Shown here one piece after another: positions 40,953 through 43,349 of a DNA stretch of 43,349 nucleotides. The stretch is from a virus: the IMG/VR virus record IMGVR_UViG_3300031143_000013, positions 1 through 43,349 of that record; one strand, given 5' to 3'. Under the pieces are notes generated by a model. That model was not told the DNA's origin. It saw only the letters and a program-made list of their open reading frames with translations, and searched no databases. Positions within the stretch are counted from its first letter, which is position 1. Each line of letters begins with the position of its first letter. The translations under genes and the position numbers were made by a program.

Positions 40953-41050
40953 TAAAGTCAAGTACTAATGTTAAGGGGTGTGAGAAAAGTAGTATTACTA
41001 GGGGTTCTGTTATTACAGAAAGGAGAGAGGAGACAAGGAGTGACACTTAT

Positions 41051-41291
41051 AGTAACTACAGAAGCCCTAGTAATACTTAATAGTAACTACTTCCTTCATT
41101 ATAACTACAAGGTTAGTAACTACTACAAATATTATAATAGACTATGTTTAACATACTGTCAATAACTATTTCAATGTAATTACATAAATTACTATAACTA
41201 CATAGTATTACTATATAGTAACTACTTATCTTATTTATAACTTGTATATGTTATTACTATTTAGTAGTTATTACTTTTTTATGTAGTTACT
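41051..41291. repeat. Array of AGTAACTAC elements (operator or origin candidate)
   Basis: Four exact AGTAACTAC copies at 41051, 41082, 41115 and 41217, one inverted copy at 41283, and variants at 41100, 41193 (TATAACTAC) and 41264 (inverted AATAACTAC). The copies lie in an AT-rich non-coding gap and surround two promoter-like sites. Spacing is irregular, about 15-33 bp within the left group. The array suggests binding by a phage regulator or replication initiator. Confidence 0.7.
41134..41162 (-). promoter_or_regulatory. Leftward sigma70-like promoter within the repeat array
   Basis: TTGACA (41157-41162), a 17-bp spacer and TATTAT (41134-41139) read leftward toward the gene ending at 40692. 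Three AGTAACTAC elements lie downstream of it, in the probable leader, where a repressor could act. Confidence 0.6.
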
Positions 41292-41323
41292 TAATAGTTT
41301 AACTACCACTACCACTACAGTAA

Positions 41324-41351
41324 GTTATACTTATTCCGTAAACCGTGTCAA
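41324..41351 (-). promoter_or_regulatory. Leftward sigma70-like promoter, TTGACA-16-TATAAC
   Basis: TTGACA (41346-41351), a 16-bp spacer and TATAAC (41324-41329) read leftward, the same architecture as the promoters at 29.2 and 42.2 kb. It lies upstream of the whole AGTAACTAC array and about 375 bp before the first gene. Confidence 0.7.
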
Positions 41352-42239: not shown

Positions 42240-42301
42240 TAGGGGAGTGACTCATTGTAAAAAACCCGTGTGTGTATTTGTACATATACGTATATCGTAT
42301 A

Positions 42302-42329
42302 CCCCCACCCTGGCCCCTGCCCGTACCCC
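42302..42329 (-). other. G-quadruplex motif
   Basis: The minus strand carries five G-runs of 4, 3, 4, 3 and 5 bases separated by loops of 1-3 bases, fulfilling the usual G3+N1-7 rule. It lies about 60 bp upstream of the HNH promoter, at the divide between divergent operons. It may affect transcription or replication start. Confidence 0.7.
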
Positions 42330-42601
42330 TATAAGAGGTGACATATCGTTTTTCTAGGGTATTAATAGTGCTAAACTACTGTAAAGTAATACTTTTAATA
42401 GTGTTAGGTGAACCCTCTTTTGGCTAAGTTACTGTAATTGCTAGGTGTTTCCTGACAGTGAACGAAATAGCACTCACGATGCATGTAATACACCCCTACC
42501 CCCCATTTGCGTTGCACACATATACCACCCCTAGAAAACCATGCCGCATTGCATAAAGGAATAGATACGCGCATGTAGTATATACTCGCGAGGCAACAAT
42601 T

Positions 42602-42636: not shown

Positions 42637-42880
42637 TAGCGCCAATCAATATCAAATGTTACAGCTATTCTTTAATGAAAACATAAACTTAAACTATTTC
42701 CGTGATCATCTAAATTAATTATTGTGTTATTCAATTCATTCTGTGCATAGTGATTACATCGAAAGCGACAAGAGATAAACCGAAGCAGCGTAGCTCTTCA
42801 ACAAGTCTCAGCGTCCTAACGGCGAACACGGTGCAAGGCCCTGAGAAATAAAGACTAAGACTAACGACTAAAAGATTTAC

Positions 42881-42910
42881 TTGACTAACTAAACTAAATA
42901 ATACTACGAT
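42881..42910 (+). promoter_or_regulatory. Weak candidate promoter for the rightward operon
   Basis: TTGACT (42881-42886) and TACGAT (42905-42910) are separated by 18 bp. The -10 is poor, so this is only a candidate. A transcript from here would include every helix of the structured leader before the ATG at 43238. Confidence 0.35.
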
Positions 42911-42961
42911 AAGACAACAAAACAGCCCTAGTTATCTGGATGGATGGCAGCAAGCGAATTA

Positions 42962-43218
42962 GCAGTCTAAGCAACTGCATAGTGACGAAACCCGATTGTT
43001 ACAGGCATGACAAAACCTGTGACATTGAGCAAGGGATGTAGGCACAAGGGATCACTGAAAGTGTGGTTTGAGAGTGGTGATATGAAACAATCCACCTACA
43101 GTGCTGGTTGCTTTGTAAAGACATCCAGGCCAAGGGTCACTATAGCTATGTCTTCACTAAGCAACAATAACGTCTGCTTAGCTTGGGTTTATCTCTACGG
43201 TGATATAAGCCTTAACCC
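42962..43218 (+). ncRNA. Structured 5' leader RNA candidate with alternative helices
   Basis: Five helices can be paired by eye: GCAGT/ACTGC (42962/42974), GTTACAGG/CCTGTGAC (42998/43016, 8 bp with one wobble), TGTAGG/CCTACA (43037/43095), GTTGCTT/AAGCAAC (43107/43159) extended inside by AAGACAT/ATGTCTT (43118/43148), and GGTTTAT/ATAAGCC (43186/43205). CTAAGCA at 43157 can instead pair with TGCTTAG at 43175, and GGGTT at 43185 with AACCC at 43214, giving mutually exclusive folds. The 9-mer CTAAGCAAC occurs at 42967 and at 43157. The last fold ends just before the Shine-Dalgarno (TGGAG, 43227). A cis-regulatory switch is inferred; the ligand is unknown. Confidence 0.6.
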
Positions 43219-43237
43219 TAAACATTTGGAGAATATC

Positions 43238-43349
43238 ATGTATAAAGTTGAAAAGAATGTACCAATGCCAAACGCAACTCGCAATGGCGTTCCTTACTAC
43301 AAATACCCTTTCTTCACAATGAATGTAGGTGATAGCTTTGCGGTGCCTG
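43238..43349 (+). CDS. Hypothetical early protein, 3'-truncated
   Basis: Thirty-seven residues are visible before the window ends: MYKVEKNVPMPN, then YYKYPFFTMNVGDSFAVP. This opening resembles small conserved phage proteins whose N-terminus has KYPF..M.VGDSF, of unknown function. GGAG lies 6 bases before the ATG. The frame is also open upstream to 42986 (ATG codons at 43007 and 43082), but the ribosome-binding site and overlap with RNA helices favour 43238. It opens the rightward operon that presumably leads to the replication genes outside the window. Confidence 0.75.
   Translation, partial: MYKVEKNVPMPNATRNGVPYYKYPFFTMNVGDSFAVP

Follow-up and report, generated by a model that had tools for sequence, protein, structure and literature searches.

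The locus and its genes

The window analysed here, the full 43,349 bases of the IMG/VR virus record IMGVR_UViG_3300031143_000013, encodes a terminase large subunit that is 56–86% identical to its counterparts in HMO-2011 and in most HMO-2011-type roseophage isolates. Phages of this type are described as dominant and widespread in the ocean (PMC9038755). The gene plan is like that of the isolates CRP-2 and CRP-603, with leftward structural genes, rightward early genes and a long divergent non-coding region between them. We found no description in the literature of how early genes are switched on in HMO-2011-type phages.

Gene 1 of the rightward operon starts with MYKVEKNVPMPN behind the Shine-Dalgarno sequence GGAG (43228–43231) and is cut off by the end of the window. 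An identical stretch is found in the 55.8-kb contig L005, in which gene 1 is complete and the rightward operon continues beyond it. The gene is also conserved in frame in contigs L013, L014, L009, L007 and L008.

Two further non-coding stretches recur in related phages. A block of ~75 bases at 42257–42331 recurs with 84–87% identity in the divergent intergenic regions of both CRP-2 and CRP-603, and with about 79–91% identity in contigs L061, L020, L035 and L014. The DNA flanking the block gives no alignment; it is perhaps an origin, packaging or promoter signal. Between leftward genes, an AT-rich stretch at 41040–41330 contains many TAGTAACTAC-like repeats, and a similar stretch is present in CRP-2 and CRP-603.

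The comparison of homologous leaders shows that the rightward (early) operon is headed by a predicted untranslated RNA of ~480 nt, which consists of a near-constant 5' element of 90 nt, a linker without structure and a structured module that can be exchanged. Its features are listed in Table 1.

Table 1. Features of the leader and of the first rightward gene (window coordinates).
Feature	Position	Strand	Description
Promoter P1 (predicted)	42722–42751	+	-35 TTGTGT 42722–42727, 18-base spacer, -10 CATAGT 42746–42751
5' element	42756–42845	+	90 nt; long bulged stem-loop and second hairpin
Helix P1	42759–42769/42813–42822	+	5' element, stem-loop 1
Helix P2	42772–42777/42804–42809	+	5' element, stem-loop 1
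Helix P3	42782–42789/42793–42799	+	5' element, stem-loop 1
Helix P5	42825–42832/42838–42845	+	5' element, second hairpin
Linker	42846–42922	+	A-rich, G-poor, unstructured
Central module B	42923–43096	+	174 nt; holds the first hairpin of the first-pass annotation
H1 outer	42925–42927/42949–42951	+	module B
H1 inner	42933–42936/42943–42946	+	module B
H2	42962–42966/42974–42978	+	module B; the first hairpin of the first-pass annotation
H4	42991–42993/43033–43035	+	module B
H5	42999–43005/43016–43022	+	module B
H6	43051–43055/43063–43067	+	module B
H7	43074–43077/43092–43095	+	module B
Two-part arm	43107–43165	+	GTTGCTT (from 43107)/AAGCAAC outside AAGACAT (43118)/ATGTCTT (43148); stable, unalignable to relatives, just 5' of gene 1
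CTAAGCA/TGCTTAG	43157–43163/43175–43181	+	pairs, near-isoenergetic with the alternative; without homologues for covariation
GGTTTAT/ATAAGCC	43186–43192/43205–43211	+	pairs; without homologues for covariation
GGGTT/AACCC	43185–43189/43214–43218	+	pairs; without homologues for covariation
Gene 1	43238–43349	+	truncated by window end

Promoter P1 would start transcription at ~42758, the third base of the 5' element. Over 57 distinct upstream sequences a sigma70-like promoter stands at a fixed distance from the element, with a -35 region like TTGCAA or TTTACA and a -10 pattern in which A occupies position -9 in 46/57 and T position -5 in 52/57. We infer one transcript running from this start into gene 1; the last arm of the leader is directly followed by the gene 1 ribosome-binding site, which suggests a single continuous RNA, and no terminator-like or processing site was found in the leader of the window. 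Across 58 leaders the folding energy of the linker is, in the median, -0.1 kcal/mol for each 70 nt. It contains a second sigma70-like promoter-like site (TTGACT-N18-TACGAT, 42881–42910), at which ACTTGACTA is common to 31 of 60 leaders; such a site would yield transcripts without the 5' element.

A conserved element at the 5' end of the leader

The first-pass annotation had placed a structured leader with mutually exclusive helices at 42962–43218. Leaders of 67–70% identity were retrieved by tblastn, and their alignment revealed conserved blocks both upstream of and within this interval, which omits the best-supported domain just upstream, the 5' element. When the conserved block ACATCGAAAGCGACAAG was scanned against IMG/VR, 77 contigs were obtained; a few are chance matches and the others carry the 5' element. 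The matches are metagenomic contigs.

Several lines of comparative evidence describe the element as a folded RNA. In alignment-free tests with conserved letters as anchors, helix P2 has its two halves paired in 60 of 80 cells, where shuffling gives 35 on average (none of 20,000 shuffles as high), and helix P5 pairs in 26 of 33 against 16.8 (2 of 20,000 as high). A MAFFT alignment of 13 sequences (A1) has 95% of cells paired and 9 of 29 pairs doubly changed, compared with 0–2 when the pairing partner is slid. The covariance model R1 finds one copy in the window, at 84 bits, and a single copy at each of 70 loci. Over 54 distinct 5' elements the covariation score reaches 0.359, with at most 0.061 in slid controls, and counting on a tree gives 59 double compensatory events in 15 pairs versus 0–7. 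The invariance of the 5' strand of helix P1 is partly an ascertainment effect of retrieval by an exact 17-mer; contigs retrieved otherwise do show compensatory pairs in this helix (L200 with GCC/GGC, L232 with GAA/UUC, and L196).

The element, which also contains invariant stretches, is placed between the divergent leftward block and the rightward genes. It lies 400–900 bases upstream of the first rightward gene, with ~390 nt to the start codon in the window; on the other side, the nearest long leftward gene is mostly about 900–1,300 bases away.

Central module B

Downstream of the linker, module B behaves in the same manner. In a three-sequence MAFFT alignment fitted to no structure (window, L160 and L157), 13 of 31 pairs are doubly changed, while slid controls give 0–2. 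The model R2 detects 26 loci at E < 1e-6, comprising 25 distinct homologues; over these loci 21 of the 31 pairs are doubly changed, and the tree count arrives at 61 double compensatory events versus 0–3 in slid controls. Fitting to the models applies to alignments A2 and A7 but neither to A1 and A5 nor to the anchor tests. The H1 stem illustrates the kind of change seen, occurring as GUAUC/GAUAC, GUCAG/CUGAC, GUGAA/UUCAC, GUGCA/UGCAC and GCUAA/UUAGC around the loop UGGA(U/C), and the loop of H2 is kept as UAAG(C/G)A in nearly all copies.

Among the pairs of module B there are 40 G-U cells and 7 A-C cells, and this excess favours an RNA of the plus strand. A minus-strand RNA, which has a folding z of -1.7, was rejected on the same asymmetry.

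Folding energy was considered as evidence and abandoned: with z values of 0.07 for the 5' element and 0.02 for module B, it is ordinary for both conserved domains and hence uninformative. On this measure one would have dismissed an RNA that the comparative data establish. These data leave hardly any doubt that a structured RNA is encoded at this locus, and they bear out the earlier proposal of a structured untranslated leader upstream of the rightward operon through compensatory change in homologous leaders.

Modular composition in related phages

Other phages keep the 5' element and have different structured regions in the place of module B. We refer to these central modules as type C (L103, L138, L129, L125, L165, L073), type D (L112, L128, L122) and type E (L038, L100, L109, L145), all of them apparently structured. 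The first gene after the leader varies between phages as well, and the leader persists.

A third covarying domain, T, is found directly 5' of gene 1 in many phages, with 27 distinct copies (L143:933–1050, L104, L123, L112, L150 and others), and is absent from the window. It is laid out as a long stem closing a CCAA-loop hairpin and a CUUGA-loop hairpin. For the former, 71 of 72 cells are paired, where shuffling gives 46.7 on average (0 of 20,000 shuffles as high); for the latter the figures are 37 of 40 and 28.7 (2 of 20,000). For these phages a TTGACA promoter before gene 1 was rejected as the sole reading, as the TTGACA letters vary and the CUUGA hairpin is kept.

The 3' arms and the proposed switch

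The first-pass annotation had drawn most of its helices between module B and gene 1. All strings it named are present in the window, including the repeat CTAAGCAAC at 42967 and 43157, and every pairing it proposed consists of standard base pairs. Its first hairpin sits in covarying module B, but for the 3' arms (43107–43218) the only relative is the identical contig. Relatives do have a two-part arm in the same place as 43107–43165, which shares its position and is unrelated in sequence; the reality of the arm is thus backed by its position only.

The notion of mutually exclusive helices holds in so far as both pairings can form and are near-isoenergetic, GTTGCTT/AAGCAAC and CTAAGCA/TGCTTAG giving -32.5 and -31.7, a difference of 0.8 kcal/mol. 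The competing 3' helices, however, are not conserved. Nor does the annotated interval fold better than expected: for 42962–43218 z is -1.24, with 22 of 200 dinucleotide shuffles equally or more stable, and 42900–43240 and 43097–43239 give -0.53 and -0.78. A kissing contact of the first hairpin loop had been suggested from the repeat. The repeat is there, but UGCUUA, the complement of the loop, is absent from 8 of 8 close relatives (those whose loop is UAAGCA or the variant seen in L157), so that among them the window alone could form the contact, and we rejected it together with a pseudoknot. In four more distant leaders (L135, L143, L146 and L148, at +59 to +66) the H2 loop reads CUAAGGA and is complementary to UCCUUAG in the 3' strand of helix P1, so that the two domains might touch in this subgroup. 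This match with the 5' element is regarded as chance, because that strand is common in those leaders.

Searches for known RNAs

The class of the RNA had gone unrecognised at first, and Rfam 15 agrees: neither the window nor any of 12 relatives has a match that reaches the gathering score, and when the E-value was relaxed for the window, L143 and L103, chance matches were all that appeared. The Rfam covariance models of GOLLD and ROOL found nothing in the window and the 12 relatives, and no tRNA or tmRNA was detected in the window or at 16 loci. Likewise, a blastn search for the leader in 50,697 phage records and an exact pattern search of 84,980 bacterial and archaeal genomes gave no match. 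A literature search, with subscription literature outside its coverage, turned up no mention of such an RNA.

The cultured relatives compared (HMO-2011, CRP-1, CRP-2, CRP-3, CRP-207, CRP-235, CRP-345, CRP-603 and HTVC033P) share the phage group of the window by terminase, and CRP-2 and CRP-603 also its long divergent intergenic region, but both the 5' element and module B are unmatched in the isolates searched. A covariance search of 15 HMO-2011-type isolates came back empty, as did a direct cmsearch of six of them in full, while the positive controls, IMG/VR records, were matched as expected; each of the 7 matching records holds one R1 copy, as the window does. Taken together, the leader is an RNA of an undescribed kind, built of separate folded domains; the marine phages that carry it form a large, uncultured group.

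What might the leader do?

Our best guess, to which we assign a probability of about 0.4, draws on an analogy: the leader would be a cis-acting transcription-processivity device that works like put of phage HK022, without homology to it. The 5' element would act in cis while emerging from RNA polymerase, and the elongation complex would thereby become resistant to pausing and termination, which is the mode of put. As a result, transcription could pass through the long leader, itself untranslated, and on through the early operon downstream. The central module and the arm beside the ribosome-binding site would belong to the leader as secondary parts specific to each phage. An unstructured untranslated transcript is the kind that needs protection from Rho. 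That the leader is independent of the identity of gene 1 is as expected for an operon-wide device.

Antitermination by put proceeds through the zinc-binding domain of the RNA polymerase beta' subunit. The HK022 element is ~70 nt long, comprises two stem-loops immediately 3' of the early promoter PL and requires no protein factor (PMC9378689). The likeness extends to phage origin, to a predicted position in cis directly after an early promoter, to a presumed operon-wide action and to the arrangement of two stem-loops, the first long and bulged and the second shorter; host RNA polymerase would presumably be used in both cases. In contrast, the 5' element has 90 nt and is followed by large structured modules, and it occurs once per genome, whereas HK022 has two copies, putL and putR. 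A search of the HK022 genome with R1 gave no match up to E = 10, and therefore we propose no homology to put and claim no membership. Further points speak against a put-like device. Transcripts from the promoter-like site downstream of the 5' element would miss it. No terminator that would need read-through was found in the leader. Finally, the idea accounts for the 5' element but fails to explain why large folded central modules are retained and swapped.

These modules are the strength of the main rival explanation, possible if on the doubtful side, in which the leader is a non-coding RNA of several domains that is produced as infection begins and acts in trans, in the style of GOLLD and ROOL. 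Its domains would assemble into a particle of their own or attach to a component of the host, and swapped modules would adapt it to different hosts or defences. Three kinds of covarying domain at one locus, the wholesale exchange of central modules between related phages and the independence of the leader from gene 1 all fit, and phage RNAs of similar style and unknown function are known (PMC12286853, PMC7567579). GOLLD and ROOL are likewise long non-coding RNAs of phages, elaborate in their folds and strongly covarying, and GOLLD has one conserved and one less conserved end (PMC12286853). They differ in usually lying near tRNA genes, which are missing here, and the present RNA stands at an operon head, measures only ~480 nt and has exchangeable modules. 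Against a separate RNA stand the 3' end of the window's leader, where neither a terminator nor a processing site was found, the ribosome-binding site directly after the last arm, which suggests a continuous transcript, and the absence of a match to GOLLD, ROOL or any other Rfam family.

One could go further and regard the locus as a slot for interchangeable RNA modules, in which a constant 5' element drives the early expression of unrelated folded domains acting in trans. The modules might target, for example, host RNA polymerase, ribosomes or defence systems and be swapped like accessory genes. We hold both the slot and these targets to be rather unlikely.

The riboswitch or attenuator logic put forward in the first-pass annotation, by which a ligand, a protein or the ribosome shifts the 3' arms between exclusive helices and turns gene 1 on or off, has fared poorly. 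The closeness in energy of the two alternatives, the last arm near the Shine-Dalgarno sequence and the invariant, aptamer-like stretches of the 5' element do recall such devices, and the riboswitches and attenuators of Rfam 15 share with the window the 5' leader position, conserved unpaired stretches and a competing helix pair. They differ in that no family matches, no expression platform is conserved and the downstream genes are not conserved either. Moreover, the leader offers no terminator, eight relatives cannot make the loop contact, the conserved 5' element lies ~390 nt from the start codon and the folding energies are ordinary. As the leader stays while gene 1 varies, control specific to one gene is disfavoured; with the platform unconserved and the regulated gene changing, we consider the switch improbable.

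A role at a replication origin within the divergent intergenic region, whether by an R-loop or primer RNA or by dyads acting as DNA, appears to be a similarly long shot. Its location in a long divergent non-coding region, near the block at 42257–42331 shared with CRP-2 and CRP-603, would suit it, but the element is absent from the same-group isolates searched, and the 40 G-U versus 7 A-C cells of module B point to single-stranded plus-strand RNA rather than duplex DNA.

That the leader encodes a protein can be dismissed: the frame 43007–43348, listed as P0001, has no stop in the window and runs into gene 1 in phase, but stop codons close it after 7, 16 or 38 codons in 9 relatives, where it is mostly out of phase with gene 1, and the RNA fold is the conserved unit. 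In the window the phase with gene 1 is due to chance, and automatic annotation may over-extend the gene.

Implications for early gene expression

Each of the better-surviving explanations would carry its own consequence. If the 5' element is an antiterminator that needs no protein, the task of HK022 put would have a second solution, unrelated to the first. If the modules act in trans, these phages carry exchangeable effector RNAs, and the slot arrangement, if true, would amount to a class of phage effector RNA without a known counterpart. The RNA family that heads the early operon is strongly supported, and it provides a concrete, testable part of the switch-on of early genes in these phages.
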